Assembly: GCA_020725805.1 (NCBI GenBank)
Contig: DYEF01000032.1
Span: 1 to 35,170, forward strand
Direction of reading: 5' to 3'
DNA from: Bdellovibrio sp.
GTDB lineage: Bacteria > Myxococcota > SpSt-1050
DNA length: 35,170 bases
Of this stretch, positions 1,356-27,221 are shown one piece after another. The notes beneath the pieces were generated by a model that saw only the letters and a list, made by a program, of their open reading frames with translations, was not told where the DNA came from and searched no databases. The translations under genes and the position numbers were made by a program. Every line of letters starts with the position of its first letter. Position 1 is the first letter of the stretch.

Positions 1356-2369
1356 ATGAAAAAAATATTTGTAGAAATCAGCCGCAGGTGTCACAAAAGC
1401 TGTTATTACTGCTATAACAACAAGAAAACCGATAAAGAAGTCAGACCCGACATCAAAAGAATTATCGAATCAGTTATAGCCCTCGCAGGAGATGAGAAAA
1501 GACTGTCCCCCGTATTCTCCGGCGGAGAACCGGTATTTTCATTAGATGAGATTGAAAAGATATTGCTGCAGCTCAGAGAATCAGGATATATCCTGTATCC
1601 TGTACTAATCACAAATACAGAGCATATTTCAACGGATTTTAAGGAATTTATAATTAGGTACAAACCATATCTGGTCCTGTCGTTCAACAAAAAGACAAAA
1701 ACTCTTTTAAATGAATTCAAACTCCTATGTCCCCAAAAAAACCTGTTTATAAGATTCACCATTACACCAAAGAACTTAGATTCGGTTTATAAAAACATTA
1801 AAGTGCTTACAGATAAAATGTATTCTGTGGGTATATCTCCTGCCTATGGAATACTATGGACTGATCATTCACTTCAAAAACTTGGAAGACTTTATTTAGA
1901 ACTTTTGAATCTCAGGAATATAGAACTTATATATGATTTTCATAAAATACTACATACGAGAGACAAAAATCCGGAATTATGCAATTCGCTCATGACCAGT
2001 AATGCAGTTGATATCTATGGAAATATTCACTCCTGCCACAGAGCTATATATTTTCCTGAAAGGGATATTCAGGAGAGCCAGTTCAGAGAAGACTGCGAAT
2101 TATGCCCCGCCTACAGATTCTGTACACCGTGTATATTCAAGGATATTCCGGGGGAAGGATGTAAAATAAGAGTTGCAATATCGCCTGCATATGAGTTATT
2201 ATATAACCTACGGAGGTCCGGGATGAAGAAGAAGGCAAAGATATCCTATAAAGGGAAAAAATACGAGATTCCTGAGACAGTACTGAAAAAATACACGAAA
2301 GGGAAAAGATCTCCCACAAAAAGGAATCCGAGAAACTTTTACGAATTGGGTGAGTCCGACTGCTACTGA
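1356..2369 (+). CDS. Radical SAM/SPASM-domain protein, possible peptide or protein maturase
   Basis: This 337-residue protein has the radical SAM cluster motif CHKSCYYC (Cys12, 16, 19), which binds the [4Fe-4S] that cleaves SAM, and a GGEP motif at 56-59. Its C-terminal half carries seven cysteines (209, 227, 247, 250, 256, 259, 269) in a SPASM-like pattern, which in known maturases binds auxiliary Fe-S clusters. A Lys/Arg-rich tail of about 45 residues follows. SPASM enzymes commonly modify peptides or proteins, but no obvious precursor peptide lies nearby. It is flanked by two Cys-rich exported proteins, which are conceivable substrates (inference only). An in-frame stop at 1350-1352 fixes the start at or after 1356. 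The nearest good Shine-Dalgarno (GGAGG, 1333-1337) is too far for this ATG. Its stop overlaps the convergent neighbour by 7 bases. Confidence 0.85.
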   Translation: MKKIFVEISRRCHKSCYYCYNNKKTDKEVRPDIKRIIESVIALAGDEKRLSPVFSGGEPVFSLDEIEKILLQLRESGYILYPVLITNTEHISTDFKEFIIRYKPYLVLSFNKKTKTLLNEFKLLCPQKNLFIRFTITPKNLDSVYKNIKVLTDKMYSVGISPAYGILWTDHSLQKLGRLYLELLNLRNIELIYDFHKILHTRDKNPELCNSLMTSNAVDIYGNIHSCHRAIYFPERDIQESQFREDCELCPAYRFCTPCIFKDIPGEGCKIRVAISPAYELLYNLRRSGMKKKAKISYKGKKYEIPETVLKKYTKGKRSPTKRNPRNFYELGESDCY

Positions 2370-3355
2370 CAGATACACTGCCTGAATTGTGTATCACAGG
2401 CATTACCGAAGCAATCTTCCACAGAATAACACTCTACTCCGCAGGTACCACCCTTGAACGGATTCATGGGGTCAATGGGCTGGCATTCAAGCGGCGAGGG
2501 ACAGTTATTCAATGTAACAGAACAACTTTTACAGAGATCGGGATTCTTCGGCTGGCAACTCGGGGGATTGGTCTTTGTACTGCAGTACTGCTTTGTATAA
2601 TCACAACTGCCGTTGCAGGCATCCTGAATCTTCTGACAGGTCTTGGAGACTATCTCACAGAAGTACCCCTTTGTCTGGTCACAGTGTGAATTAACGATAC
2701 ATTCCTTGCATTCAAAGGAGTCTCCGATATCGCAGTGTTTGTTTACAGGATTACTCGCACACTCCTGGTCGCTATGGCAGATTGTATTTACTTTGCAGGT
2801 CTTTGTATTGGTGTCGCAATACTGTCCGGCACAGCAATCAGTAGTCTTGAGACATCCGGTCTTACACTCTGCCTTATTGTTCACAACAACGCAATAGCTT
2901 CCGCAGTCGCATTTATAATTGTCGCAGGGGGTTCCGGCATCATAACCGGTATCCGTAATCTGTTCAACACCTGTATCTGTAATACCTGTATCTGCTGTAT
3001 CAACCGGATTAACGTCCTTTGGGACATCCGGTAAATTTGTGTCCTGATGGACATCATACGCAACATCCTCTGTTTCGGCATCCTTCACACAGACATAACA
3101 CTGGTTTTTCAGCGTATCGCAACACATACCGGTCCCGCACTCTTTATCTTCTGTGCAGAATCCTGCGGATTTACACTTGCATTTACCGCCGGAACAGATT
3201 CCTCCGTTGCAGTCGCTGCTCTTTTTACAGGCCGCACCTTCTTCGCAGACACCGGGACCTGCGTCCTCCGTGGTCTGACCACCTCCGCAATAGGACAGAA
3301 GAGTTGTTAATAAAGCAAAAATTAAAAGACTAAGAATTTTGATAATCTTACTCAT
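2363..3355 (-). CDS. Cys-rich lipoprotein with Asp/Thr-rich linker
   Basis: This 330-residue product starts with a typical export signal (MSKIIK, then a Leu/Ile-rich core) ending LLSYC, so Cys23 is the likely lipid attachment site, although Tyr at -1 is unusual. After it come a Cys-rich block (about residues 35-90), an Asp/Val/Thr-rich linker with repeated DTG and DV pairs, and a second long Cys-rich region to the C-terminus. All Cys are in CxxxxxC- or CC-type spacings that suggest disulfide-bonded modules outside the cytoplasm. The frame is open up to an ATG at 3436, but that start would lie upstream of the promoter at 3366-3394 and would bury the signal peptide, so 3355 is preferred. There is no Shine-Dalgarno, consistent with a leaderless mRNA. 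Function is unknown; similar lipoproteins are common in myxobacterial-type genomes. Confidence 0.75.
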   Translation of the reverse strand: MSKIIKILSLLIFALLTTLLSYCGGGQTTEDAGPGVCEEGAACKKSSDCNGGICSGGKCKCKSAGFCTEDKECGTGMCCDTLKNQCYVCVKDAETEDVAYDVHQDTNLPDVPKDVNPVDTADTGITDTGVEQITDTGYDAGTPCDNYKCDCGSYCVVVNNKAECKTGCLKTTDCCAGQYCDTNTKTCKVNTICHSDQECASNPVNKHCDIGDSFECKECIVNSHCDQTKGYFCEIVSKTCQKIQDACNGSCDYTKQYCSTKTNPPSCQPKNPDLCKSCSVTLNNCPSPLECQPIDPMNPFKGGTCGVECYSVEDCFGNACDTQFRQCICQ

Positions 3356-3365
3356 AGTGAAAATA

Positions 3366-3394
3366 ATTTTATATATCTTTTTTAACTTCGTCAA
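3366..3394 (-). promoter_or_regulatory. Promoter of the Cys-rich lipoprotein, nearly leaderless
   Basis: TTGACG (3394-3389) and TAAAAT (3371-3366) on the minus strand are 17 bases apart and each matches five of six consensus bases. The predicted transcription start is near 3359, about four bases before the ATG at 3355. This supports the shorter start and a leaderless transcript. Confidence 0.55.
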
Positions 3395-3407
3395 TAATAA
3401 AAGTTTG

Positions 3408-3526
3408 CAAAACCGGTTATCTGTATAATCTGACATACCGAAACAGAATATGAAGCAAAAACCAGATGAAACTTATTTCGAATAAATACTTTACAAAGAT
3501 TTACAAAACAGTTATCTGTAATCTGT
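3408..3526. repeat. Pair of imperfect direct repeats between divergent genes
   Basis: Two copies of a roughly 22-base motif lie at 3408-3432 and 3504-3526. Both contain CAAAAC, then GTTATCTGTA, then AATCTG or ATCTG; they differ by one or two single-base indels. They sit about 96 bases apart, upstream of both the lipoprotein (minus) and the second radical SAM gene (plus). They could be binding sites for one regulator or a short duplication. Confidence 0.5.
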
Positions 3527-4958: not shown

Positions 4959-6671
4959 ATGGTTAAGAAAACGGCTGTTCAGATGGATATTTTTAAAGAG
5001 ATTCCGCAAACCGGTGAAAACATCAAAGAAAATCCGGTCTCTGAGAAGAGAGACGAAAGACAGGTAAAGGAGTCCAGAAAGCAGACTCAGGATACGGCAC
5101 ACATTCTTGCACAGAAACAGAGGGAGATATCGATATCCGAGTTTTTTCTGAAGAACAGACACCTTCTGGGATTCGATAACCCCTCGAAGGCACTTCTGAC
5201 AACCGTCAAGGAGGCAGTTGACAATTCACTCGATGCCTGTGAAGAGGCCGGTATCCTGCCGGAAATAATAATAGTTATCAGACAAATTGCCGAAAACAGG
5301 TTTTCCGTATCAGTCGAAGACAACGGACCGGGTATTGTAAAGAATCAGATTCCCAAAATCTTCGGGAAACTCCTTTACGGTTCAAAATTTCATACTCTGA
5401 AACAGGCAAGAGGCCAGCAGGGAATCGGTATAAGTGCCGCGGGTATGTATGCCCAGCTTACAACAGGAAAACCTATCAGAATTCTGTCGAAGATCAGGAG
5501 TCAGCAGGAGTCCCATCAGTTTGAAATTCAGATAGATGCGAGAAAGAATGCACCGGTTGTTGTCCGGGAAGATACGATCATCTGGTCCAACAATGATGTA
5601 CTTAAAGAGCACGGGACGAAAGTCGAGATGGAGATAGAGGCAAATTACAAGAAGGGCTCCCATTCAGTCGACGGATACATCTTTCAGACAGCCCTTGCCA
5701 ATCCCCACGCCACCATTATCTATTATCCTCCCGAGGGCGAATTCGTAAAATATGAAAGGGTCAGCAACGAACTTCCGGTCGAATCAAAACCTATAAAACC
5801 ACATCCGTACGGAGTTGAACTCGGTATCTTCATTAAAATGATTCACGAGACAAAGGCAAAAACCCTAAGACAGTTCTTTACCTCCGAGTTCTCAAGGGTC
5901 TCTCCGAGAATAGCCCAGCAGATTGCCGAGAGTGTAAACCTGAATGCCGACCAGAGAATTTCCTCACTCTCCCCCTCCCAGATAGAACTTCTCTACCAGA
6001 GTATCCCCAAGATAAAGATAATGGCTCCTCCTTCTAACTGCCTCTCTCCGATAGGAGACCAGCTTATCATATCTGCGCTCAAGAGGCAGTTTAAGGCAGA
6101 CCTCTACTATGCAGTTACAAGACCTCCCACGGTTTACAGAGGGAATCCGTTCCTTATCGAAGCCGGAATTGCCTATGGCGGTGAATTGCCGTCAGAAGAA
6201 CCGGTTGAGATAATGAGATTTGCCAACAGGGTACCACTGTTATACCAGCAGTCTGCCTGTGCAATGACAAAAGCAATAGTCTCTACTTCGTGGAGGTCCT
6301 ACAATCTTCAGCAACCCAAAGGTTCACTGCCGGTAGGACCTATGGTGATATTCATACATATTGCATCTGCATGGGTTCCGTTTACCTCCGAGAGTAAAGA
6401 GGCAGTAGCCCATTATCCGGAGATTCTCAAAGAGATAAGACTCGCACTTATGGAATGCGGAAGACAGGTATCCATACATATCTCCCGCACAAGAAGATTT
6501 ATGGATCAGGAGAAGAAAAAATCCTATATAGAAAAATATATTCCTCATATCGGTGAGGCATTAAGGGAGATACTCGAACTCAACAAGGCAGAAGAAGAGA
6601 GAGTCAATAACACCCTTCGTGAAACGCTGGAAAAGTCCAGAACCAAGATTGTCCTCAAGGAGGCTGACTGA
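4959..6671 (+). CDS. top6B: DNA topoisomerase VI subunit B (type IIB, GHKL ATPase)
   Basis: This 570-residue protein is the ATPase and strand-passage subunit of topoisomerase VI, which relaxes and decatenates DNA by double-strand passage as an A2B2 tetramer. The GHKL (Bergerat) fold motifs are all visible: the N box EAVDNSLDA (85-93, with Asn89 for Mg-ATP), DNGPG at 121-125, and the glycine-rich lid GQQGIGISAA at 152-161. The transducer has the family blocks WRSYNLQQPKG (446-456) and PFTSESKEA (475-483). The N-terminus has about 55 charged residues before the family core, so the protein is somewhat longer than archaeal subunits of about 530 residues. The Shine-Dalgarno is GGAGGA at 4944-4949. 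It is followed by subunit A after only two bases. Topo VI is sporadic in bacteria, so horizontal origin is plausible but not tested here. Confidence 0.95.
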   Translation: MVKKTAVQMDIFKEIPQTGENIKENPVSEKRDERQVKESRKQTQDTAHILAQKQREISISEFFLKNRHLLGFDNPSKALLTTVKEAVDNSLDACEEAGILPEIIIVIRQIAENRFSVSVEDNGPGIVKNQIPKIFGKLLYGSKFHTLKQARGQQGIGISAAGMYAQLTTGKPIRILSKIRSQQESHQFEIQIDARKNAPVVVREDTIIWSNNDVLKEHGTKVEMEIEANYKKGSHSVDGYIFQTALANPHATIIYYPPEGEFVKYERVSNELPVESKPIKPHPYGVELGIFIKMIHETKAKTLRQFFTSEFSRVSPRIAQQIAESVNLNADQRISSLSPSQIELLYQSIPKIKIMAPPSNCLSPIGDQLIISALKRQFKADLYYAVTRPPTVYRGNPFLIEAGIAYGGELPSEEPVEIMRFANRVPLLYQQSACAMTKAIVSTSWRSYNLQQPKGSLPVGPMVIFIHIASAWVPFTSESKEAVAHYPEILKEIRLALMECGRQVSIHISRTRRFMDQEKKKSYIEKYIPHIGEALREILELNKAEEERVNNTLRETLEKSRTKIVLKEAD

Positions 6672-6673
6672 TT

Positions 6674-7762
6674 ATGGCAAGGGAATCAATACTCAGGAAG
6701 ATAAAGGAATCATCAAAGGAAATATACTCCGATATAATCCATCGTAAAAGTCCCAAAATGGCATTCCCGCTCAGATCCCTTCAGAACGTAAAATACGACC
6801 CGAAGATAGGTTTTTTCGAACTTAAGGGGAGAAAAAAGTCAAGGACGCTTACTGTCAATACTGTCAAGACATTTGCCCAGACACTCAGAATGGTTGCACT
6901 CTCCAAGGAACTTATTTCAACTGACGATATCGCTACCAAGAGAGAGGCTTACTATGTTTCCAAAAACTGGGGCGATGCACGTTTCAACGAACAGGTTGAA
7001 TCGGACACAGTAATGGATGATGTGGAGGCATTCTTTCAGGTAAACAGGGAACAGCTCGGATTTATACCGGAGGAAAAAGGCGGGGATGTGGCCGGCAAAT
7101 TATTTATAATTGACGAAGACAGAAATACAAAGAAGAAGTTGAGGATAGACTGTACAAAATTCGGTTCGGGGGCGTACTCAATTCCGATATACGTTGAACA
7201 CCTTCAGTTCGAAACAGATGCAAAGTTTATTCTTGCTATAGAGACCGCCGGTATGTTTCAGAGACTCGTCAAGCACAATTACTGGCAGACGGCCAACTGC
7301 ATTCTCATCAGTATGGGAGGTGTTCCTACAAGGGCGTGCAGGAGATTCATCAGAAGGCTATCCGATGAAATGAAACTTCCGGTCTACGTCTTTGTGGACG
7401 GCGACCCCTACGGAATCGGCAATATCTACCGTACACTCAAGGTAGGTTCGGGAAATGCAGCCCATATCAACGAATTCTTCTGCGTTCCGAAGGCAAGATT
7501 TCTGGGCATAACACCTCAGGATATCATCGACTACAAACTTCCCACTCACCCCCTAAAGGACGTGGATATCAAAAGGGCAAAGGACTCAATCAAAAATGAC
7601 CCGTTTTTCAATCATTACCCTGAGTGGAAAAGGGCGATAAATCAGCTGATAGATATGGGAGTCAGGGCAGAACAACAGGCACTCGCAAAGCACGGTCTGA
7701 ATTATGTCATTGATGTATATCTGCCCGAAAAGATTAAGAATTCGTCAAAATTCCTGCCATAA
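6674..7762 (+). CDS. top6A: DNA topoisomerase VI subunit A (Spo11-like cleavage subunit)
   Basis: This 362-residue protein is the DNA-cleaving subunit of topoisomerase VI and a relative of eukaryotic Spo11. The 5Y-CAP/winged-helix domain has the catalytic tyrosine motif KREAYYVSKNW, in which one of Tyr93/Tyr94 forms the covalent 5'-phosphotyrosyl bond. The Toprim domain shows its metal ligands: Glu190 in AIETAGMF and Asp242/Asp244 in VDGDPYG. Length and motif spacing agree with archaeal subunit A, and nothing suggests loss of activity. It starts two bases after the subunit B stop, so the two are almost certainly translated together at matched levels. No clear terminator lies between it and the kinase gene 64 bases downstream. 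Confidence 0.95.
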   Translation: MARESILRKIKESSKEIYSDIIHRKSPKMAFPLRSLQNVKYDPKIGFFELKGRKKSRTLTVNTVKTFAQTLRMVALSKELISTDDIATKREAYYVSKNWGDARFNEQVESDTVMDDVEAFFQVNREQLGFIPEEKGGDVAGKLFIIDEDRNTKKKLRIDCTKFGSGAYSIPIYVEHLQFETDAKFILAIETAGMFQRLVKHNYWQTANCILISMGGVPTRACRRFIRRLSDEMKLPVYVFVDGDPYGIGNIYRTLKVGSGNAAHINEFFCVPKARFLGITPQDIIDYKLPTHPLKDVDIKRAKDSIKNDPFFNHYPEWKRAINQLIDMGVRAEQQALAKHGLNYVIDVYLPEKIKNSSKFLP

Positions 7763-10154: not shown

Positions 10155-10186
10155 AAAAAATGATATCTGTTATTTTTTCAACAGAT
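10155..10186 (-). terminator. Rho-independent terminator after the glycosyltransferase gene
   Basis: On the minus strand ATCTGTT and AACAGAT form a perfect 7-bp stem with an 8-base loop (10186-10165), followed after three bases by six Ts (10160-10155). The stem contains the stop codon of the glycosyltransferase gene. It is AT-rich, so probably of moderate strength. It would insulate rnpB from the upstream operon. Confidence 0.5.
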
Positions 10187-11285
10187 TCTCACATATTCTT
10201 AAGAACAGGTCAGCGGACTTTTTAAGACCGAACTCCTGTGCAACTCTGTTATGTATATCTTTCCTCAGACTATTATCTGCAAAATCACGGACAGATTCAA
10301 TTGTTTTTGCTATGCTTTGGGTATTACTGACATCAGAGAAAAAACTTCCGTATCCGGTTGTCTCTATAAGTCTGCTTGCAGGAAAATTTTTATATGTCAG
10401 GATATATGTCCCGCAGGACTGAGCCTCATACAGCATTCTGAGGGAAGAATCGTGTCCGCCCCTTAAAAGGACGAATACATCCATCGCATTGTATGAATCC
10501 ACAAGTTCATTCTCCCCGACAAAACCTGTAAATACAATATCTCCGGTATCAGCCTTTCTGCGCGCATATCTCTTTATATCTTCGAGAGTTTCTCCCGAAC
10601 CTACCATCAGAAGACGGGAATTTTCACTGCCCTTTTTCACCCTGATAAAGGCATCGATGAGCTCCCTGTGCATTCGTCCCTTCTGAAACATACCCACATA
10701 TCCGATTACAAAAGAAGCCCCTTCAAGACCAAACCTTTTTCTGAATTCTGCACCGTCTTTCGGAACAAATATTTCTGTGTCGATACAGGAAGGAAAGAGA
10801 AATAATCTCTCCCTGAGGCTGTTGTATCGTGATTTGAATCCGGCATAGATATCATAGTCATAGAAAATGAATACATCAGTCTTTTGATAGAGTGATTTGT
10901 GAAGAAAATCCCCTCTAATCCCCGGGCTATGGAAAAATCTTATTATCTTAGGTTTCTTCTCAAGGTTTTTTAAAGCAATACCTGCCGAAAAGTGGTCATT
11001 CGAAAAAGATGAAACCACAAAATCAGGCCTCATATCCAGTATGACCGAGCGGAGAAGATTTATCTCCCTGCTCTTTCCGAACAGTTTATTCTTATTGGAG
11101 ACGGAGACATCTCTTATCAGAACGGCCCCCGATTTTTCAATTAGTGAATTCAGGTCACCGGTCCTGTTCTGGTCTGCTACTGCAAAGACCTTATGTCCCG
11201 TTTTTACCAGAGAGCGCAGGATATTAAAGGACTGTGCGGCCTGTCCCGTGAGTGTGGAAGTCGAAAATAGGAATAAGAACCTCAT
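10170..11285 (-). CDS. Glycosyltransferase, GT4-like (GT-B fold)
   Basis: This 371-residue protein looks like a GT-B fold glycosyltransferase. The N-terminal half starts MRFLFLFSTSTLTGQAAQ and has the usual strand-helix pattern with a G-Q-A loop. The C-terminal half begins at about VIGYVGMFQKGR, contains a 'VGSGE' nucleotide-binding strand, and ends with the donor-site block YEAQSCGTYILT, typical of GT4 family members. The sugar and acceptor are unknown; lipopolysaccharide or another surface glycan is likely. The start is the ATG at 11285, whose A is the last base of the upstream gene's TAA, rather than an in-frame ATG seven codons earlier. It is the last gene of the unit and ends in a hairpin terminator. 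Confidence 0.8.
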   Translation of the reverse strand: MRFLFLFSTSTLTGQAAQSFNILRSLVKTGHKVFAVADQNRTGDLNSLIEKSGAVLIRDVSVSNKNKLFGKSREINLLRSVILDMRPDFVVSSFSNDHFSAGIALKNLEKKPKIIRFFHSPGIRGDFLHKSLYQKTDVFIFYDYDIYAGFKSRYNSLRERLFLFPSCIDTEIFVPKDGAEFRKRFGLEGASFVIGYVGMFQKGRMHRELIDAFIRVKKGSENSRLLMVGSGETLEDIKRYARRKADTGDIVFTGFVGENELVDSYNAMDVFVLLRGGHDSSLRMLYEAQSCGTYILTYKNFPASRLIETTGYGSFFSDVSNTQSIAKTIESVRDFADNSLRKDIHNRVAQEFGLKKSADLFLRICENLLKK

Positions 11286-11977
11286 TATCCCCTGTAATGT
11301 TTGCAAAACCTGTTTTTACATTCACTGCAGAAAATAAAATATTTTCTGAACTTCATTGCATACTCTTTCTTCATCCTGAAGAAAAGACCTGAAATACTCT
11401 TTTCGGGGTACATCTGAAATGATTCACTGAGAGTGACACAGTCATTCTCTTCTTTCATAAGGTCGAAAATTACACTTTGCTGTGAGATATTTATATCGCA
11501 GTAACCCGGGGAATACGGAGCAGAGAGTGAGAATCCGGCAGGATTTATCTCATCCTCGATTCTGTTCATAATATAATCGAGGGTCGCCTCTGCGTACACA
11601 GAACCGTATCCGTCTGCAATCTGGGATAGAAAATATTCTCCGTCTTCATAATACTTTCTGCATTCTTTCTCTATTTTGTCTCCGTTTGTCAGTATAAAGA
11701 CAAACACGGATTCTGCATTTAAGGATATTTTTGCCAGCACACCGGATTTGATTTCATGATTATCTATAAGAATTCCGTCATTTGATGCCGTAAAATCCTT
11801 AAACTCCCTGATTATCACGCAGGGAGAAACCAGCTCAGATAATTTTTTCCCCGAATCATCTATTAATTTTCTTATATGCTCCGGAAATTTTTCTTTATCT
11901 GCAATCTGAAGATATCTGTACAGATTATCGGCCCTGAGATACCTTACTATATCATCACCTGATGGCTTGATTATCAT
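11285..11977 (-). CDS. Stand-alone MetH-reactivation-domain-like protein
   Basis: This 230-residue protein resembles the SAM-binding reactivation domain of B12-dependent methionine synthase, present as a separate polypeptide as in Thermotoga TM0269. The diagnostic blocks are SPGYCD (156-161) and LSESFQMYPEKSISG (183-197). The C-terminus has CSECKNRFC (Cys217, 220, 225), a cysteine tail I associate with stand-alone members of this family. In full MetH an arginine precedes the PGY motif and contacts SAM; here the matching position appears to be Pro154. No metH or other corrinoid gene lies in the window. The ATG at 11977 overlaps the upstream TGA (TGATG) and is preferred over the longer frame to 12037. 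It could reactivate a MetH encoded elsewhere or be a divergent relative. Confidence 0.7.
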   Translation of the reverse strand: MIIKPSGDDIVRYLRADNLYRYLQIADKEKFPEHIRKLIDDSGKKLSELVSPCVIIREFKDFTASNDGILIDNHEIKSGVLAKISLNAESVFVFILTNGDKIEKECRKYYEDGEYFLSQIADGYGSVYAEATLDYIMNRIEDEINPAGFSLSAPYSPGYCDINISQQSVIFDLMKEENDCVTLSESFQMYPEKSISGLFFRMKKEYAMKFRKYFIFCSECKNRFCKHYRG

Positions 11978-12576
11978 CAGTCTTCCATAATATGAGGCCT
12001 GAACTGCAGGTCGATATTCTCCTCGAAACTCTTCCACAGATTGCCGAGATGGTTTGCAAATACAAGGATATCCCTCTTCGTCCCCTTCTCGTCCATAAAG
12101 AATTCGGGCAGAACTGCTATCTGTTCAAAATCGAGTTCCTCAATCTCCTTCTTATGTTCCTTCATTTCAGGGAGAAGTTCTACCACCACTCTCTCCTTAC
12201 CATCTTCCATACTCAGATAAACGAGTTCTGAAATCAGTTCACGGGTGAGCCCCGTTCCCCAGAAAGACTTGTCAATACAGATATAAAATCTCTCGATATG
12301 TCTGAAATAATATTCGTCGTATTTTTTTGAAAGACCTATACCTACAACCTTGTCCCTGCAAAAGGCAACTATTATGTAATTACCTTTTTCGAGGAGCTGC
12401 CTGAACTCGTTCAGAATATCTTCCGGTTCCCTGTGCATCCAGAAGAATATCCTTTCATAAAGATTCTGATTCGACAGAAATGCTGCCAGTTCCTTTCTGT
12501 CCTGCTGGTCCCTGTAATTCTTTATTTCTATTCTGCTCTGATTCTCCAATGTAATAATCTTAAAAATATTCTTCAC
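11977..12576 (-). CDS. GNAT-family N-acetyltransferase
   Basis: This 199-residue protein has the GNAT core. A strand IIVAFCRDKVVGIGLS is followed by IERFYICIDKSFWGTGLTREL (about 94-114), where W-G-T-G-L is the acetyl-CoA pyrophosphate-binding loop (Q/R-x-x-G-x-G/A type). The first 60 residues form an N-terminal helical region. The substrate cannot be inferred. The start is GTG with a strong AGGAGG site six bases upstream, 12 bases after the outer-membrane protein gene. Its stop overlaps the next gene's ATG, so it is translationally coupled to the MetH-reactivation-like protein. Confidence 0.75.
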   Translation of the reverse strand: MKNIFKIITLENQSRIEIKNYRDQQDRKELAAFLSNQNLYERIFFWMHREPEDILNEFRQLLEKGNYIIVAFCRDKVVGIGLSKKYDEYYFRHIERFYICIDKSFWGTGLTRELISELVYLSMEDGKERVVVELLPEMKEHKKEIEELDFEQIAVLPEFFMDEKGTKRDILVFANHLGNLWKSFEENIDLQFRPHIMED

Positions 12577-16208: not shown

Positions 16209-16865
16209 TTACCTCTTTATACAATCCGACGGCTGTCCCGCCTTCTTTGCCTCCTCGATGATCTTCGAAATATCTTCATTATATTTGCTGATTTTCTGCA
16301 GCAATTCGTTTTTGCGGGCATTCAGTGTACCGAACTCCTTTGCAGGACCTTCTGCTATCTCCTTCTGTTTTTCGGGAGGTGTATCTGCGGGGACCGCAAT
16401 ATTATAAACACCATCCTTGCTGACAACCTTGTATTCGGAGGTAATCTTTGAAAGTTTCTTTTCTATTTCATTGAGTTCATCCTGATACGGTTTCATCTCA
16501 TTTTTTACATTCTCTATTCTCTCGTTGTAAGTGTTGTCGCACCTCGAGACCTTAAACTCGGTACTCTGGACGGGAGTTGCAGGCTTATTCTGTATCTCAG
16601 ATGGTTGCTGCACGGCCTTAGTTGCGTTTGCCTCTGCCTTCAGTTTCTCCTCTGCAATCTTCGAACTGACATATCTGATCCGCTCCTGAACTATCTCGGT
16701 CTTATAATCACGGCTCTTCAGCTCGACGTAAATATCGAAAGCCTCCCTGTACATATTCAGTTTAAGAAAACCTTCTGCTTTCAGAAACAGTTCCTCACTG
16801 TCGTCCTGCTTCTGACAGGAAATAAAAAGAAATGCAATCAGGACAATCATTACTGCTCTTTTCAT
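16209..16865 (-). CDS. Putative lipoprotein with coiled-coil segment
   Basis: This 218-residue protein has a lipoprotein signal MKRAVMIVLIAFLFISC (Cys17). A short helical repeat-like region follows (EELFLKAEGFLKLNMYREAF), resembling one TPR-type hairpin. Next are an Ala/Gln/Pro-rich linker, a charged helical segment likely to form a coiled coil (about 120-150) and another near the C-terminus (about 185-215). The start at 16865 is chosen over the longer frame because it has a good Shine-Dalgarno (AAAGGAG) and begins the signal peptide; the longer frame would overlap the upstream gene. I do not recognise a specific family. It lies between the SDR gene and psd and is probably co-transcribed with both. 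Confidence 0.7.
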   Translation of the reverse strand: MKRAVMIVLIAFLFISCQKQDDSEELFLKAEGFLKLNMYREAFDIYVELKSRDYKTEIVQERIRYVSSKIAEEKLKAEANATKAVQQPSEIQNKPATPVQSTEFKVSRCDNTYNERIENVKNEMKPYQDELNEIEKKLSKITSEYKVVSKDGVYNIAVPADTPPEKQKEIAEGPAKEFGTLNARKNELLQKISKYNEDISKIIEEAKKAGQPSDCIKR

Positions 16866-16878
16866 CTCTGTATCTCCT

Positions 16879-17826
16879 TTAGTCAAAAAATGTAATATTT
16901 TCAACAATATCCCTGCATCTGTACTCCGGTTCATATCCGAAGTCCTTTCTCGCCTTATCTATAGATAAAAGACACGGGAATGAGAGTATGTCAATAAGTT
17001 CTGAATTGTAAATATCTGATTTAAATAGCAGCTTTGCCGAACCAAAGATACTTCTGGATACGCCTTCGGGCAAATAAATAAAAGGTTTATTCAGGTGAGA
17101 TGCAATCTCGCTTAGTCTTATGGTATCAGATGACGCAATATTGTAGACCCCGCCGGAGGAGAGCAGAACCGAATTGAGTATATAATTGATGACGTCACTG
17201 AAATAGAGGAACTGAAATTCGGGGTCTCTTCTGGCAATCGAATAAATAACAGGTGTCTTTTTCAGGAATTTTATGAGTATATCTTCCGAAAAATTATGAT
17301 AGACAGGGACTGTCCTGAAGAGGAACAAACCTTTGTTTTCATTCTGTGAAAAATAGCCCGAGAGATAACGTTCTATAATAAGCATATCATTCAGATAGGC
17401 AACCGATGAAGCTGAGATGAGCACATCCGACTCAACATATTTCCTGCTGCTTGAGAAGTTTACCCCGTATACAAATGAAGAAGAGAAGAGATAAAGTTTT
17501 TCAAAGAGATTTTCCCTGAAAAACCTGAACAACCTCTCGAATCTGATGAAATTATTACGGTTGTAGGGATGTATTTCGGAATATATGTCGTAGTCGAACA
17601 TAAGATGTATTACAACATCCGTATTTTCCGATTTGCAGATTTCCTTTATGTTGGAAAGATACGGGTCTGTCTCGTAAAACTTCATCCCGGGCGGATTATA
17701 TGAAGGAAATCTTGTATCTACCCCGACTATATCAATTTTCTGCTCTGTAAAATATTTTACTATTTTCGTAGCGGGGAATTTACTGACTCCGGTTACCAGA
17801 TATTTTTTGCTTCTGATTCTCTGCAT
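16879..17826 (-). CDS. SDR/NAD-dependent epimerase-like protein, probably degenerate
   Basis: This 315-residue protein has the fold of extended short-chain dehydrogenases (sugar-nucleotide epimerases/dehydratases): a first strand YLVTGVSKFPATKIV, an acidic strand end IDIVGVD, DVVIHL, LYLFSSSFVYG, and the later motif GGVYNIASSDTIRLSEI. Two hallmark features are damaged. The glycine-rich NAD loop (TGxxGxxG) reads TGVSKFPA (12-19), and the catalytic YxxxK reads YLNDM (144-148), so the lysine is missing. It may be a non-catalytic member, or use a different chemistry. It is the first gene of the unit followed by the lipoprotein, psd and rtcB. The ribosome-binding site is weak (AGGA). The frame is intact, so it is not a pseudogene. 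Confidence 0.75.
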   Translation of the reverse strand: MQRIRSKKYLVTGVSKFPATKIVKYFTEQKIDIVGVDTRFPSYNPPGMKFYETDPYLSNIKEICKSENTDVVIHLMFDYDIYSEIHPYNRNNFIRFERLFRFFRENLFEKLYLFSSSFVYGVNFSSSRKYVESDVLISASSVAYLNDMLIIERYLSGYFSQNENKGLFLFRTVPVYHNFSEDILIKFLKKTPVIYSIARRDPEFQFLYFSDVINYILNSVLLSSGGVYNIASSDTIRLSEIASHLNKPFIYLPEGVSRSIFGSAKLLFKSDIYNSELIDILSFPCLLSIDKARKDFGYEPEYRCRDIVENITFFD

Positions 17827-17930: not shown

Positions 17931-20900
17931 ATGAAAAAGGTGATAGTAATTTTACTAATAATATCAGTTTTTAACTGCATTAATCAGCAGGATTTCTACT
18001 TTACGAACAGCAATGATACAGGGGATACTGATTCAAATAATACAGATTCTGAATCTGATGCATATGTTGCGGATTCTATAACCGATATCAGTAACACATC
18101 AGATTATTTTGAACTCATAAATCTTAATCCCTATGACACCATATGCGGGACATATTACTTGCTGATAGAAAGCAAAAATACAGATAAGATCACAGGTATC
18201 GGTGTCTACCTTGACAGCATACCGGTTCTGAACAAATACAGCATCTTTAACAGAAAGATAATAGCCGAAATCAATGTAGAGAATTTCCGCAATGGTTCCT
18301 ATTTCCTAAAAGTAGAAATTAATAATTCGTACACTGAGTTTGAAGTTAATATTGATAATAGCGAAAAATGTGACAATCCGCCTGTCGTTATCATCACTGA
18401 ACCTGAAAATAACAGTTATATCTCGAATAATAATATTATCAGGGTAAAGGCCTATGATGATATCGGAGTCGTAGGTGTCTCTTTCTATGTAGATAATAAT
18501 CTCATTCTTTACGATACATCTGCCCCTTATGATATATCAATCAATACTGAAGGCTTTGAAGAGGGTCTTCATTTCATCAAGGCAGTTGCCTTCGATTCTT
18601 CGAACAAAAAGGCAAAAGACACAATCAGACTCTTCTTTGACACCAAGGCCCCTGAGATAGAAATATTAACTCCGTCAGATTATGAGATTTATAATAATAA
18701 ACTCAATATTAAGGTAAGAATTGCTGACAATACCATAACGGATTCAGTTACAATATATCTTCTGAATTTTCTGACTAACGAGAAATCAATACTTTATAAC
18801 GGCGAACAGATAAATGATATCAATCTGATATCCGGAACCGAAAATATAAAAAACGGATTTTATTCATTAGTTGCCGAGGCATCCGACAAAGCGGGAAATA
18901 TTGGTCGGGCAAGTAAGGTTATTATTATTGGGCATAATGAAGTTGTAAAATATTATAGATGTAGTTCAGATTATAAAGAATGTGCTGACCTATTCAGTTC
19001 GCCTGTAAGGGGAATACTCTATCTTAAAACCGAACCCGATATTGCTTTTGGTCAGTTTTTTTACAGTACAATATTTCTTGGAAACGAATATTTTAATAAT
19101 AGCAATAAGATTGAAATCGATACGAGATATTCATATGACGGATTATGGGATTTTTTCACCGTACTTAAATTCAAAGAGGACATCATAAAGATAAGCAAAA
19201 GCGTAATTGTTCAATCCTGTGATCAGGACAGAGACGGATATCTTGATACCAGTCCGGAATGCGGCGGAGACGACTGTGATGACAGAAGACATTCCGTAAA
19301 CCCCGGAATGCCGGATTTTCAGGGAGATGGAAGAGATACAAACTGCGATGGTATAGACGGGACAGACCTTGACAGAGATGGATTTGTTGCACAGCAATTC
19401 GGTGGTAATGACTGCAACGACAATAATAATAAGATTAATCCGGCAGCAAACGACATACCCGGAGATGATATTGATTCAAATTGTGACGGCATTGACGGAA
19501 TCGATAAGGACGGCGACGGTTTCATTTCAAATTCATATAACAATAAACTGAGAGACTGTAACGACAATGACCCTGATATACACCCCGTTAGATTTGACCT
19601 TGCCGGTGACGGAACTGATTCCAACTGTGATGGTATCGACGGCGAGGATTATGATAGTGATGGTTATGCCAGCACAGAATCAGGGGGAAATGACTGTGAT
19701 GATAGCAATTATTATATCAACCCCGGCAGATACGACTATTCCGGAAATTATATTGATGAAAACTGTGATGGTATCGACGGCACAGATAATGACAGAGATG
19801 GTTATGCATCCAATCCCAATTATTCATCGTTGAGAGACTGTAACGATAATGACCCTGATATACACCCCGGTGCAACTGATATGCTGGGAGACGGAGTTGA
19901 TTCAAACTGCGACGGGATAGACGGGATTGATTATGACCAGGATGGATATTCCAGTATTGAATCAGGCGGAGATGATTGCAATGACAGTGATCGGAGTATA
20001 AATCCCAGAAGAACTGACATATATGATAATGGTATAGATGAAAACTGCGACGGGGTTGATGGTGTCGACAATGACAGAGACGGTTATGCAAGTATATTAT
20101 CAGGTGGCAGCGATTGTAACGACTACGATAAAAATATTAACCCCTCTTCTTCTGATTTATATGGTGACAAGATTGATACAAACTGTGACGGTATTGACGG
20201 AGTTGACAATGACAGAGACGGTTATATAAGCAGGGAGAACGGCGGTAACGACTGTAATGACAATGACCCAAAAATAACATTGCCGGATTGCTTTAATAAA
20301 TGTACAGGATATTACAGTGATTGCGACATTATTTGCGAAAACGGATGTCTTAACGGATTTAACTGCATCAGCAATATATGTCAGAGTAATATATGTCCGG
20401 AGTTTATTTCGGTCGACCCAAAGGGAATTTATCCTGTCATCGGATACTGTCCGGCTGTCACGGGAGTTTCACCTTATAAAGGCCCCGACAGACCAAAACA
20501 AATCAATTCCAGAACGACTTCCTATACTATGTATTATTCTTCATACAGGGATACAATGCCTGTCGTCGATGAAAACGGATTCATTTATATGGTTGCAAAC
20601 GGTAAATTTATAATCTTTGACAACAAACTTATGATTAATAACACACCAAGTAATATCGGAGAGTCATATAGTACACCCGTAATAGGTGCAAGCGGGACGA
20701 TTTATGTAAGTAGTTATTACGGTGACCTCTATGCACTAAGAAAAAACGGTTTGGTAAAATGGATTTTCTCAACATATTCCAATATTGTTACTTCACCTGT
20801 CCTTGGAAGTAACGAAAATATTTATATTACTTCATCCAACAGAAGCCTGTACAAGATTTCCAGCAATGGGCAGCTTATATGGGAATTCATAACGGGAGGC

Positions 20901-21488
20901 AATATAGAGGCTCAGCAGTTCATTGACAGAGACGAAAACATTTATATCTATTCAAATGATACATTCTTATATAAAGTTTCCAAAAACGGCGAACAGATTT
21001 ACAGATATCAGGCAAATTCTGTTACCAGAAAAATGGCTATTGATGAAAATTCAAATATCTATTTCGTCAATAAGGACAATAAACTCGTCTCCCTTAATGC
21101 TGACGGGAATAAGATATTTGATATAAATCTGCCGTTTTATACAAATAAGAACTACCTCATTTATCACAATAAAAAGTTATATTATTTATCAAATACACGA
21201 TATGCACTATTTGATATCGGGACAAAAACTCTTGTCTGGGAGAGAACACCTGCCGGCTCGGGTGGCAATGCACAGATGCCGCTTCTCGATTCAGTGGGAA
21301 ATCTGTTTGTCATCTATAATTGTACACTAGAAAAATTAAGCGGAATAAACGGAGAAAATCTTTTTCTGTTTGTTACTTCTTCAAGTGACTGCACCAATTA
21401 TATGACAACACCGGTTATAACTCCGGGTGGAAACATTATACTATACACCGACAGAGGCAAATTATTTATTATTGGTGATGTGCGGTAA
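17931..21488 (+). CDS. Large lipoprotein: Ig-like domains, MopE-type metal-binding repeats, PQQ-like propeller
   Basis: This 1185-residue protein starts with an export signal ending VFNC (Cys16, probable lipidation; Asn at -1 is unusual). An Asn/Asp/Ser/Thr linker follows. Two bacterial Ig-like domains lie at about 148-335; the first has PVVIITEPENNSYIS and the second PEIEILTPSDYEIY. Residues 430-787 are seven complete and one partial repeats of 46-48 residues, each with D.DxDGy, GGnDCnDnd, iNPg and DxNCDGIDG: the MopE-type putative metal-binding motif, rich in EF-hand-like Asp clusters. A short Cys-rich module follows (about 790-825). The C-terminal third (about 870-1185) has repeats such as GTIYVSS...LYAL..NG...W, a PQQ-like beta-propeller. 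It is probably a surface, Ca2+- or metal-binding protein involved in adhesion or scavenging. It has a strong own promoter and stands alone. Confidence 0.85.
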   Translation: MKKVIVILLIISVFNCINQQDFYFTNSNDTGDTDSNNTDSESDAYVADSITDISNTSDYFELINLNPYDTICGTYYLLIESKNTDKITGIGVYLDSIPVLNKYSIFNRKIIAEINVENFRNGSYFLKVEINNSYTEFEVNIDNSEKCDNPPVVIITEPENNSYISNNNIIRVKAYDDIGVVGVSFYVDNNLILYDTSAPYDISINTEGFEEGLHFIKAVAFDSSNKKAKDTIRLFFDTKAPEIEILTPSDYEIYNNKLNIKVRIADNTITDSVTIYLLNFLTNEKSILYNGEQINDINLISGTENIKNGFYSLVAEASDKAGNIGRASKVIIIGHNEVVKYYRCSSDYKECADLFSSPVRGILYLKTEPDIAFGQFFYSTIFLGNEYFNNSNKIEIDTRYSYDGLWDFFTVLKFKEDIIKISKSVIVQSCDQDRDGYLDTSPECGGDDCDDRRHSVNPGMPDFQGDGRDTNCDGIDGTDLDRDGFVAQQFGGNDCNDNNNKINPAANDIPGDDIDSNCDGIDGIDKDGDGFISNSYNNKLRDCNDNDPDIHPVRFDLAGDGTDSNCDGIDGEDYDSDGYASTESGGNDCDDSNYYINPGRYDYSGNYIDENCDGIDGTDNDRDGYASNPNYSSLRDCNDNDPDIHPGATDMLGDGVDSNCDGIDGIDYDQDGYSSIESGGDDCNDSDRSINPRRTDIYDNGIDENCDGVDGVDNDRDGYASILSGGSDCNDYDKNINPSSSDLYGDKIDTNCDGIDGVDNDRDGYISRENGGNDCNDNDPKITLPDCFNKCTGYYSDCDIICENGCLNGFNCISNICQSNICPEFISVDPKGIYPVIGYCPAVTGVSPYKGPDRPKQINSRTTSYTMYYSSYRDTMPVVDENGFIYMVANGKFIIFDNKLMINNTPSNIGESYSTPVIGASGTIYVSSYYGDLYALRKNGLVKWIFSTYSNIVTSPVLGSNENIYITSSNRSLYKISSNGQLIWEFITGGNIEAQQFIDRDENIYIYSNDTFLYKVSKNGEQIYRYQANSVTRKMAIDENSNIYFVNKDNKLVSLNADGNKIFDINLPFYTNKNYLIYHNKKLYYLSNTRYALFDIGTKTLVWERTPAGSGGNAQMPLLDSVGNLFVIYNCTLEKLSGINGENLFLFVTSSSDCTNYMTTPVITPGGNIILYTDRGKLFIIGDVR
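19218..20291 (+). repeat. Tandem MopE-type repeats inside the lipoprotein gene
   Basis: About 1.07 kb of tandem coding repeats of 138-144 bases, seven complete plus one truncated. The most conserved part codes for NCDGIDG. Two period lengths alternate: copies with 46 residues, and copies (third and fifth) with a two-residue insertion and RDC in place of GGNDC. That pattern suggests duplication of a two-repeat unit. Confidence 0.8.
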
Positions 21489-21493
21489 ATATT

Positions 21494-22981
21494 CTACCTG
21501 ATTAAAAAATGTGTCAGAAGTCCTACTATCCTGTCCGGCAGGATACCGGCAAAAATAATGACCAGAACGAGAATCCCTATGACAATATTAAATAGTACGT
21601 TACCCTCATATCTTTCTTCGTTGTTAGGTTTCTTCAGGAATAATACCAAAACGAAGTTCAGGTAATAATAAAGTGAAACTATTGTCATAAGTATTGCAAT
21701 GACAGAAATCAAAATCAATCCGGAATCTATAGCGGACTTGAAGATAAAGAGTTTGGCAAAGAAACCACCTGCGGGCGGAAGTCCGGCAAGTGAGAAGAGA
21801 GAGACGGTCAGAGCTACTGCCAGAAACGGGTTCTTATAATACAATCCGTTGAAACTGCCTATCAGCTGATTCTCCCCTCCTGCCTTTTCGAGTCTCGAGA
21901 AGATACCGAAAGCCAGCAGATTCATAAGTGAATAGATAAAGACAAAGAAGAGGATATTGACCTTAATGGTCTCTCTAAGCTCCCCGGAGGCGACCAGATA
22001 TGAGAGAATTCCGAGCATTATGACGGCCGCATTCGCAATACTGGAGTAGGCAATAAGCCTCTTTGCATTTGTCTGATGAAGTGCGATAAGCGTTGATATA
22101 ACAATGGTAATAATGGTCAGGATTTCGAGCAATCTGTATGCAATATGATAATCGGATACCAGAGGAGCAAAAAACATCTTCGAAAATATATTCAGAAGGA
22201 CTACAACAGAAGCCACTTTTACTGATGTAGATGCAAAACCTGACACACAGGAAGGAGAACCCTCGTAGAAATCCGGAACCCACATATGAAACGGGACAAT
22301 TCCCAGTTTCAGCAGAATAACGGCTATAACAAAAATATATGCGGTTATTAAAACAGTATTACCTGCATTGATACTCTTCCCGATAAACCCCAGATTGTGG
22401 AAGCTCAGCATATCCGAATTTACACCGATGGAGAGCATAAAGCCGTATATCAGGGCAACGCCAAGGAGCGTAACCGCAAAGAAGACAGAACTGAATATTA
22501 GATATTTTAGTGTTCCTTCGATTGAAAGTCTTGAGCGGTTGTTCTTCGAGGAGAGGACAAAGAGTGACATAGAAGTGATTTCGAGACCTATCAGCATCAG
22601 AATCAGCTCTGATGAAATTACCATAATCTGCATCCCGCACACCGAGAACAAAATAAGTAGAGACGCATCCCCCCTGTCCTCTGTCATAAAACCTTTGAAT
22701 GAATCGGTTATCAGGATACTTACTATGGCCGTAATATACAGAATTATTGCCGAAAGTGAGGTCAGGGGATTGACTGTCACCATATGACCCAGATATTCAC
22801 CCCTTCCGGATGCGAGTTCATTTGCCTCCCAGAAGGCTGCGGCAAGAAGTGAAATAACGGAAAGTATATTGATGAACGAACCGCTGCTCTCCCTCTTCTT
22901 GAAGGAGAGAAAGACCAATAGTAATATCGCCGAAACGAATATAACGATGAGCGAAGCTATGTTTGAGAGTAATTCTGTCAT
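21494..22981 (-). CDS. nuoN: NADH-quinone oxidoreductase subunit N
   Basis: This 495-residue protein is one of three antiporter-like, proton-pumping membrane subunits of complex I. It is almost entirely hydrophobic with about 14 predicted helices. Conserved sites include Glu in MLIGLEITSMSLFVL (channel glutamate), a lysine region PFHMWVPDFYEGSP, and SVKVASVVVLL. The frame is open for 68 codons further upstream, but the ATG at 22981 overlaps the nuoM stop (TAATG) and starts the first helix, so it is the true start. It is the last gene of the nuo unit. Its stop is five bases from the stop of the convergent lipoprotein gene, with no terminator visible between them. Confidence 0.93.
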   Translation of the reverse strand: MTELLSNIASLIVIFVSAILLLVFLSFKKRESSGSFINILSVISLLAAAFWEANELASGRGEYLGHMVTVNPLTSLSAIILYITAIVSILITDSFKGFMTEDRGDASLLILFSVCGMQIMVISSELILMLIGLEITSMSLFVLSSKNNRSRLSIEGTLKYLIFSSVFFAVTLLGVALIYGFMLSIGVNSDMLSFHNLGFIGKSINAGNTVLITAYIFVIAVILLKLGIVPFHMWVPDFYEGSPSCVSGFASTSVKVASVVVLLNIFSKMFFAPLVSDYHIAYRLLEILTIITIVISTLIALHQTNAKRLIAYSSIANAAVIMLGILSYLVASGELRETIKVNILFFVFIYSLMNLLAFGIFSRLEKAGGENQLIGSFNGLYYKNPFLAVALTVSLFSLAGLPPAGGFFAKLFIFKSAIDSGLILISVIAILMTIVSLYYYLNFVLVLFLKKPNNEERYEGNVLFNIVIGILVLVIIFAGILPDRIVGLLTHFLIR

Positions 22982-24480
22982 TACTTTAACCCGGCATAAA
23001 ATATCTGTATCAACCTGTCTGCTGACGGCATAACCCTTGAAACAACAAATTCGGTATTGACCCCCAATACAATCATAAGAACCGCATAAGGAATCAGAAC
23101 CATATACTCCCTGAAACTCAGATCCTTCAGGTTCTGGTTTTCGGGGTTTATGTTCGGACCGAATATCACCTTCTGATAGACCCACAGCATATATACGGCA
23201 CCGAACAGCATACCTGTTGCGGCAATATATACAAAAATCCTGTGATACTCAGATGAGTTCTGCATAAACTCCGATGAATATGAACCAAAAAGTATCATAA
23301 ATTCACCTGCAAAACCGGAGGTAAAAGGAACTGCAACTGATGTCAGCGCTGCAATCATAAAGAAGACCGAAAAGGCAGGCATTACGGAGGCTATGCCGCC
23401 GTATTCAGATATGAGTCTCGTATGTCTGCGTTCGTAAAGAATTCCGACAATCAGAAAGAGCGTACCTGTCGAAAGGCCGTGGGATATCATCTGATATACG
23501 GCACCGCTTAGGGAAACCCTGCTCAGGGCAAAGAGACCAAGCACAATCAGACCCATATGTGAGACCGAAGAGTATGCGACGAGTTTCTTGATATCCTTCT
23601 GAACAAAAGAAGCCATTGCAGCATAGACGACACCGGTTACGGCAAGTATAAAGACTGCCGGAGCAAAAATCAGGGTTGCATTCGGAAAGAGCGGAATGAC
23701 AAATCTCAGCATTCCGTAGGTCCCCATTTTGAGAAGGATTGCCGCAAGGATTACAGAACCGCCTGTCGGTGCCTCCACGTGTGCATCGGGTAGCCACGTA
23801 TGAACCGGAAATAAAGGGACCTTTATGGCAAATGCCAGAAAGAACGCCCCGAAAAGTAATAACTGTTCCTTGACCGAAAAATTAGTCCCGTATATCTCGC
23901 TGACCGAGAAACTCCCCGCAGCGTTACCTATATAAAAAATACCGATAAGCATCAGGACAGAGCCGACCGAAGTGTATATCACAAACTTAAATGTGGCATA
24001 GACCCTGTTCTCTCCTCCCCACATTGCAATGATAAAATACATTGGTATCAGCATCGCCTCCCAGAAGAGGAAGAAGAGGACGAGGTCCAGCGCAAGGAAT
24101 GTCCCGAGCATTGCCGTTTCCAGAAAAAGCAGCATCATATAGTAGAGTTTTTCGTCTGTCTTTATGTAATTGAATGACGAGACAACAACTACCGGTACAG
24201 ATAATGTTGTAAGCAGAACCAGAAAGAGACTTATCCCGTCGACACCGGTATGGTAATAGATATTCAGCGGACCTATCCATCTGATAAGAGTCTCGAACTG
24301 GAATCCCGCATTGCTCCTGTCGAACAGTATTAGCATTAGAACAGATAATGCCAGCGGGACCAGCGACAAGATGAATGTAATATTCTTTATCAGTACCTTC
24401 TCATCCCGTGGTATAAAGAGAAGGATAAGCAGTCCTATGACCGGAGAAAATATTATATATGTAAGAAGTACCGATTCCAT
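22981..24480 (-). CDS. nuoM: NADH-quinone oxidoreductase subunit M
   Basis: This 499-residue integral membrane subunit of complex I is a proton-pumping antiporter homologue. Key blocks are LFWEAMLIPMYFIIAMWG, with the channel glutamate, and HTWLPDAHVEAPTGGSV followed by LLKMGTYG, with the lysines of the half-channels. The length matches E. coli NuoM (509). The ATG directly abuts the nuoL stop codon with no gap, and the stop overlaps nuoN by one base, so it is translated as part of a coupled series. Confidence 0.95.
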   Translation of the reverse strand: MESVLLTYIIFSPVIGLLILLFIPRDEKVLIKNITFILSLVPLALSVLMLILFDRSNAGFQFETLIRWIGPLNIYYHTGVDGISLFLVLLTTLSVPVVVVSSFNYIKTDEKLYYMMLLFLETAMLGTFLALDLVLFFLFWEAMLIPMYFIIAMWGGENRVYATFKFVIYTSVGSVLMLIGIFYIGNAAGSFSVSEIYGTNFSVKEQLLLFGAFFLAFAIKVPLFPVHTWLPDAHVEAPTGGSVILAAILLKMGTYGMLRFVIPLFPNATLIFAPAVFILAVTGVVYAAMASFVQKDIKKLVAYSSVSHMGLIVLGLFALSRVSLSGAVYQMISHGLSTGTLFLIVGILYERRHTRLISEYGGIASVMPAFSVFFMIAALTSVAVPFTSGFAGEFMILFGSYSSEFMQNSSEYHRIFVYIAATGMLFGAVYMLWVYQKVIFGPNINPENQNLKDLSFREYMVLIPYAVLMIVLGVNTEFVVSRVMPSADRLIQIFYAGLK

Positions 24481-26442: not shown

Positions 26443-26738
26443 CAGTTCCTGAGCTCCCTTATATCATTACTCTTAACCGAGCCAAATATCCTGAACATAG
26501 CCACAACGACCGAAAGACCTATTGCCATTTCACACGCAGCAATAAGCATAATCACAAGCGTAATGAACTCTCCCGAATAGTTATTATAAAACCTCGAATA
26601 GGTAACAAACATAATACCTGCGGCATTCAGCATAAATTCTATGCCCATCAGAACCACAATCAGGTTCCTTCTCACGATTACGGTAATCAATCCGATAAAA
26701 AAGAGAATAAGTGATAAAACAATATACTGGTAAATCAT
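26442..26738 (-). CDS. nuoK: NADH-quinone oxidoreductase subunit K
   Basis: This 98-residue, three-helix membrane subunit sits in the proton path between the antiporter modules and NuoJ. The two conserved membrane glutamates are present, in GIEFMLNAAG (second helix) and AACEMAIGLSVV (third helix). Length is standard (about 100). Its ATG directly follows the nuoJ stop. Confidence 0.95.
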   Translation of the reverse strand: MIYQYIVLSLILFFIGLITVIVRRNLIVVLMGIEFMLNAAGIMFVTYSRFYNNYSGEFITLVIMLIAACEMAIGLSVVVAMFRIFGSVKSNDIRELRN

Positions 26739-27221
26739 TTAAGACTTCCTCTTTGCAACAAGAATTGCAGACATAATGCTTACAATCAGAATCACCGAGA
26801 GTGCCTCGATGTGGAGCAGATAATCGCTTACCATCAATCTGCCGAGTTCCGAAGTATCCGAGAGGGCGACTCTGCTGCTACCCGAAAACCTGACAATACG
26901 AATCAGGATATAAATGGTATATAGTACAGAAATAACCGCAAGTGATTTTGTAAATAATCCGTGTACAGGAAGTTCATACTTCTTCTGCTCATCTATCATC
27001 ATTATTGCAAATACTATAAGGACTGCAACTGCCCCCGAATAGAGGAATATCTGTGCAAGAGCCAGAAAGGGGGAAGAGAGTGAGAGATAAATACCGGCCG
27101 TAGCAACGAATGCCAGAAGGAGCCCCATAGCGCTGCCGACAGTATTTTTCGAAAAGAGCATAATGAAACCGCCCGATAAGGCCAGAACTGCCGACATATA
27201 AAAAAGCAGGGCCGAACTCAT
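26739..27221 (-). CDS. nuoJ: NADH-quinone oxidoreductase subunit J
   Basis: This 160-residue membrane subunit of complex I has five predicted helices. The third contains the family block ALAQIFLYSGAVAVLIVFAIMM. It overlaps nuoF by four bases (ATGA). In the common gene order nuoG, nuoH and nuoI lie between F and J; here they are absent, and nuoJ is coupled directly to nuoF. Confidence 0.93.
   Translation of the reverse strand: MSSALLFYMSAVLALSGGFIMLFSKNTVGSAMGLLLAFVATAGIYLSLSSPFLALAQIFLYSGAVAVLIVFAIMMIDEQKKYELPVHGLFTKSLAVISVLYTIYILIRIVRFSGSSRVALSDTSELGRLMVSDYLLHIEALSVILIVSIMSAILVAKRKS

Follow-up and report, generated by a model that had tools for sequence, protein, structure and literature searches.

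A reactivation-type gene between acetyltransferase and glycosyltransferase genes

The window analysed here is the whole stretch of 35,170 nucleotides from a Bdellovibrio species. Its minus strand carries an open reading frame of 230 amino acids, with an ATG at 11977 and a stop codon ending at 11285, that lies between two other genes on the same strand. The features considered are as follows.

11977..12576, minus strand: GNAT acetyltransferase on the upstream side; its stop codon shares 1 base with the start codon that follows (TGATG)
11285..11977, minus strand: stand-alone MetH reactivation-type protein, 230 aa (PF02965, phmmer match to 1j6r, AlphaFold model, TM0269 fold match)
11516..11518, minus strand: codon of Pro154, which corresponds in position to E. 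coli Arg1134 (phmmer alignment)
11498..11512, minus strand: SPGYC block, residues 156-160; Tyr159 corresponds to E. coli Tyr1139, and Cys160 is typical of tailed stand-alone proteins
11303..11329, minus strand: cysteine tail C217-x2-C220-x4-C225, a possible metal site, invariant in alignment A2
10170..11285, minus strand: group 1 glycosyltransferase, downstream; its start overlaps the reactivator stop by 1 base (TAATG)

An earlier note on this DNA had placed the gene between an acetyltransferase and a glycosyltransferase with no corrinoid enzyme nearby. Pfam confirmed both neighbours, and the window as a whole was found to be free of MetH-like domains of the homocysteine, pterin or B12 type. 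Because the reactivator gene overlaps both neighbours by one base, the three genes are probably co-translated. The order of the GNAT and reactivator genes is kept at the same-genus locus L006/L013, and that of the reactivator and group 1 glycosyltransferase genes at L006. The same-genus relative is 47% identical across residues 1-227, and codon positions 1, 2 and 3 of the two genes differ by 38, 33 and 66%, respectively. Judged by this substitution pattern, the reactivator is evidently a constrained coding gene and not a chance reading frame.

Relationship to MetH reactivation domains

The assignment to a stand-alone reactivation domain, originally made from the SPGY and PEKSISG blocks (the latter at residues 191-197), holds. 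PF02965 is the sole Pfam match of the protein; its score of 33 bits exceeds the cut-off of 25, although the match covers residues 156-204 only (49 residues). The best solved relative by sequence is TM0269 of Thermotoga maritima (1J6R), with a phmmer E-value of 1.7e-15, or 5.2e-25 with the family profile. An AlphaFold model with a mean pLDDT of 91.6 (below 50 for residues 218-226 and 228-230) matches TM0269 in VIA-align with a Z score of 21.4 and an rmsd of 2.1 over 193 residues, and MetH activation domains with Z scores of 17-19, while the first unrelated fold scores 6.1. Nitroreductase entries at a Z score of about 6 were treated as background. The protein thus belongs to PF02965 both by profile score and by its activation-domain fold.

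Residues of the SAM site could be located by alignment with 1MSK, whose residue numbers we took as chain index + 896 (our own arithmetic). phmmer pairs S156 with chain position 240, which is Ala1136, and therefore Pro154 with Arg1134 and Tyr159 with Tyr1139. Asp134 falls at the place of Glu1101 and Glu130 at that of Glu1097. PMC1282579 gives the SAM contacts in 1MSK as Asp946, Glu1101, Arg1134, Tyr1130, Tyr1139, Tyr1189 and the main chain of Tyr1190, with Arg1134 contacting the ribosyl moiety. PMC10567725 describes the chemistry of reactivation, in which a universally conserved tyrosine is said to be important. By alignment, Tyr159 is the equivalent of Tyr1139 over the cobalt. The earlier note had also held that an arginine expected before PGY is replaced by Pro154, and had proposed aligning the protein with TM0269 and MetH domains; this alignment agrees, setting Pro154 against an arginine in both TM0269 (FRISPGY) and 1MSK.

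TM0269 and the window protein have in common that they are separate proteins with the same fold, an SPGY loop and a PxK(S/T)I block, but TM0269 has an arginine before SPGY, a glycine in place of Cys160 and no cysteine tail. A title cited in PMC7857596 states that reactivation of TM0268 requires TM0269; going by that title, TM0269 is encoded downstream of metH, whereas the window gene is unlinked to metH and overlaps GNAT and glycosyltransferase genes. The fused C-terminal domains of MetH (E. coli 1MSK, Thermus 8SSC and human) are alike in fold and in the equivalents of Tyr1139 and Glu1097. Compared with them, however, the window protein is separate, has proline for Arg1134, and carries both Lys193 in its PxKSISG block and the cysteine tail.

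The only MetH of the genome ends after its B12 domain

The proposal that the protein serves a MetH with no reactivation domain of its own gains support from the genome search for metH that the earlier note had called for. A metH profile finds one MetH, matching profile positions 2-860 of 1182. This protein of 799 amino acids consists of homocysteine, pterin, B12-cap and B12 domains with nothing after them, and a full-length MetH with its own domain, which would have spoken against the proposal, is absent. The gene lies on contig C2, unlinked to the reactivator gene on C27, and runs into the start of the gene that follows it. The window protein gives the only PF02965 match in the genome. A reactivation domain hidden behind metH was considered and rejected, as the next gene begins at the metH stop and no genome frame yields a further PF02965 match. 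At an E-value of 1 or better, TIGR02082 matches only MetH, the window protein and the B12 domain at L003, which we read as methylmalonyl-CoA mutase.

Other routes to active methionine synthase were also sought. PMC5764234 states that the MetH reactivation domain can be a separate protein, and describes corrinoid activators of the RamA/RACo type (DUF4445), for example in Phaeobacter and Desulfovibrio. These activators answer the same need, that of a MetH devoid of a reactivation domain, but they form an unrelated, ATP-dependent family. Their ATPase domain, RACo_C_ter (PF14574), is missing from the window protein and has zero matches in the genome at an E-value of 1 or better, and RACo was ruled out as the reactivator. 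At the same threshold there are zero matches to MetE (Meth_synt_2) and to Flavodoxin_1, the search covering this one flavodoxin family. With 115 contigs and a completeness of 97.9%, the assembly may have missed a gene.

A sample of 123 genomes from the phylum, 107 of them with a MetH match at an E-value of 1e-60 or better, points the same way. Counting PF02965 in the MetH frame or, where contigs are broken, on a different fragment of MetH, 104 of these 107 have a fused reactivation domain. In the remaining three (G000, G001 and G005), the MetH match stops close to position 860 and a fused domain was not found. By a profile of the stand-alone protein, run over an equal number of genomes, all three carry a stand-alone protein, versus 2 of the 104 others (G017 and G041; Fisher p 5e-5), although G000 and G001 are one genus and the domain-less cases therefore number only two independent ones. 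One further genome, G034, has a stand-alone-like protein and no MetH at the 1e-60 threshold.

Most probably, the genome has a split cobalamin-dependent methionine synthase for which this protein serves in trans as the reactivation module, its gene being unlinked to metH. The computed basis comprises the fold, Tyr159, Glu130, the domain-less MetH, and a 98%-complete genome with no second PF02965, RACo, MetE or Flavodoxin_1. As with TM0269, a separate protein accompanies a partner MetH without the domain; a gene adjoining metH, typical of that type but in our view not defining, is not seen here. On this reading, the protein is a tailed, arginine-free variant of the TM0269 type whose function is ordinary.

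Recurrent loss of the SAM-contact arginine

All 44 fused MetH loci taken from the phylum sample, counted after removal of two spurious frames, have arginine at the Arg1134 position. Among 112 stand-alone rows, this position is arginine in 85, proline in 14 and another residue in 13; of the 31 profile-found rows, which are free of pattern bias, 16 have arginine. A quick tree, many of whose forks are weak, needs nine changes between arginine and other residues, with starred branches requiring at least five of these, and seven changes for proline. From this contrast between fused and stand-alone proteins, and from the recurrence of the loss, we conclude that fused MetH is constrained to keep the arginine, a residue often lost from stand-alone proteins. 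The window protein lacks the arginine before PGY that marks the canonical fused type, and the residue does not define stand-alone proteins. Hence the place of Arg1134 is free to vary in them.

These counts bear on the suggestion, also made in the earlier note, that a missing arginine signals a different role. That note had itself named an arginine not conserved in stand-alone members as the contrary finding, and this is what the alignment gives (27 of 112 rows without it). Proline and other residues recur in these proteins, and a different role was dropped as the main reading. The Pro-type loci found by pattern number 11, one of which is the window's genus mate. Seven of the other ten have a corrinoid-type gene in their flanks (L014, L015, L038, L039, L053, L064 and L090), and three do not (L016, L059 and L068).

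It is nevertheless conceivable, if improbable, that the protein has left corrinoid repair, with Pro154 abolishing proper SAM binding and the protein working with the co-translated acetyltransferase and glycosyltransferase. The one-base overlaps with both neighbours, a gene order kept in a second genome of the genus, the lost arginine, the absence of a corrinoid gene from the window, and a long branch joined in the quick tree only by the genus mate would all fit such a departure. However, the only MetH would then be left without a reactivator in a genome with no MetE, RACo or second PF02965, while Tyr159, Glu130 and the fold have been kept, and Pro-type relatives mostly stand beside corrinoid genes, as counted above.

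Genomic context of the stand-alone class

A pattern scan gave 144 matches, of which 116 were confirmed and 80 loci kept. A MetH-like gene of B12/corrinoid, pterin or homocysteine type lies in the flanks of 62 of these 80 related loci. All 40 of the genomes tested among the 80 have a metH-profile match, and in 11 of them it exceeds the TIGR02082 cut-off. In many cases the class therefore acts on separate corrinoid proteins instead of on MetH. Moreover, since many genomes that bear a stand-alone protein have a full-length MetH, the class taken together has other corrinoid proteins among its targets as well. The window genome is unusual in having a reactivator with no corrinoid neighbour and, by the metH profile, no other methyl-corrinoid target.

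As seems true of most of its tailed relatives, the window protein might reactivate another methyl-corrinoid protein, with MetH repaired by something we did not recognise. The prevalence of separate corrinoid or methyltransferase-type genes at the related loci is in keeping with this, as is the presence of a stand-alone protein beside a full-length MetH in G017 and G041. We regard it as highly improbable here, given that MetH and the mutase-type B12 domain are the only metH-profile matches in this genome besides the window protein.

A proposed route of reactivation in trans

If the protein reactivates MetH in trans, the following sequence can be envisaged. Accidental oxidation of cob(I)alamin in the 799-aa MetH would yield cob(II)alamin, whereupon the reactivator would dock in trans on the B12 domain of MetH and its PGY loop would set Tyr159 over the cobalt. 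An electron from a presumed donor would reduce Co(II), and SAM held in the groove would then remethylate the cobalt. Docking in trans, the source of the electron and the binding of SAM without the arginine are the conjectural steps of this scheme. Such a reactivator would complete methionine synthesis in a genome whose MetH otherwise seems unrepairable.

Several observations count against an in-trans reactivator of MetH: the gene is unlinked to metH, proline replaces Arg1134, the branch is long, the domain-less cases are few, the tail is modelled at low confidence, and 11 of 40 genomes bearing a stand-alone protein exceed the TIGR02082 cut-off, that is, have a full-length MetH.

The cysteine tail

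The C-terminal CxxC...C tail had been cited as one of the marks of a reactivation domain. The tail is indeed present, but it does not mark reactivation domains generally, being absent from all 44 fused MetH loci and from TM0269. It occurs in all 80 pattern-found loci. SPGYC was imposed by the scan pattern, as was P, E or R at the arginine place, and Cys160 counts from these loci were therefore set aside. The 31 profile-found rows comprise 26 tailed and five tail-less proteins. Cys160 occurs in 15 of the tailed rows and Cys98 instead in seven, never both, and four have neither. A fourth cysteine at one or the other place is thus found in 22 of 26 tailed rows versus 0 of 5 tail-less ones (Fisher p 7e-4, for rows that are not independent). 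In the Cys98 rows PGS(L/I) replaces PGY, so the tyrosine is lost.

It is plausible that the tail, probably together with Cys160, forms a metal site whose fourth ligand can be exchanged. This candidate four-cysteine site is drawn from co-occurrence and would fit either an iron-sulfur centre or zinc. The tail region has low confidence in the model of the window protein; in a Dehalococcoidia relative the tail-bearing residues 211-230 reach mean pLDDT values of 87 and 71, above those of the window protein. A sequence search found no solved structure bearing the tail, and no account of it was recognised in open-licence papers, which is no proof of absence from the literature.

Hypothetically, the tail could be a redox iron-sulfur centre acting as a built-in electron relay. 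A broader proposal, which we advance as a rather doubtful one, is that tailed reactivators are an iron-sulfur form of the MetH activation domain, in which the three tail cysteines and Cys160 (or, in the PGS class, Cys98) would hold a cluster by the SAM/cobalt site, and a single small protein would both deliver the low-potential electron and present SAM without flavodoxin; besides split MetH, the class would serve many methyl-corrinoid proteins, and it would tolerate loss of the arginine. A redox centre of this kind would explain how split MetH and other methyl-corrinoid proteins are reduced in organisms lacking flavodoxin or RACo, a question that can be addressed in many bacterial phyla. Alternatively, the assignment as a reactivator may be right and the tail a structural zinc site or a docking element, the electron coming from ferredoxin or another carrier. 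We give this a substantial chance, somewhat short of even: CxxC pairs commonly bind zinc, four tailed proteins lack both Cys160 and Cys98, and we found nothing that argues directly against it.

The PGS(L/I) class, made up of stand-alone reactivator-like proteins, was seen in the phylum sample around Desulfatibacillum (G095) at L158-L162, L166-L169, L171 and L172. Here the SAM-site tyrosine is lost in 11 of 11 proteins and the arginine in 9 of 11, while the tail is kept in all 11 and Cys98 gained in 7. Two genomes, G195 (L151 and L165) and G197 (L152 and L164), each pair a tailed stand-alone protein with a tail-less one, which may reflect a division of labour. The tail-less proteins at L164 and L156 adjoin a homocysteine and pterin piece of MetH.

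Other features of the window

Genes for the B and A subunits of topoisomerase VI, an enzyme that is mainly archaeal and uncommon in bacteria, lie back to back at 4959-6671 and 6674-7762 on the plus strand. The minus strand carries complex I genes at 21494-28979 (NuoE/NuoF-like, chain 6-like and three antiporter-like). A plus-strand gene at 17931-21488 encodes a protein of 1185 amino acids with seven MopE-type metal-binding motifs, a Big_7 domain and propeller-like matches. Two minus-strand open reading frames, at 2363-3436 and 16209-16934, have no Pfam match at an E-value of 0.001.
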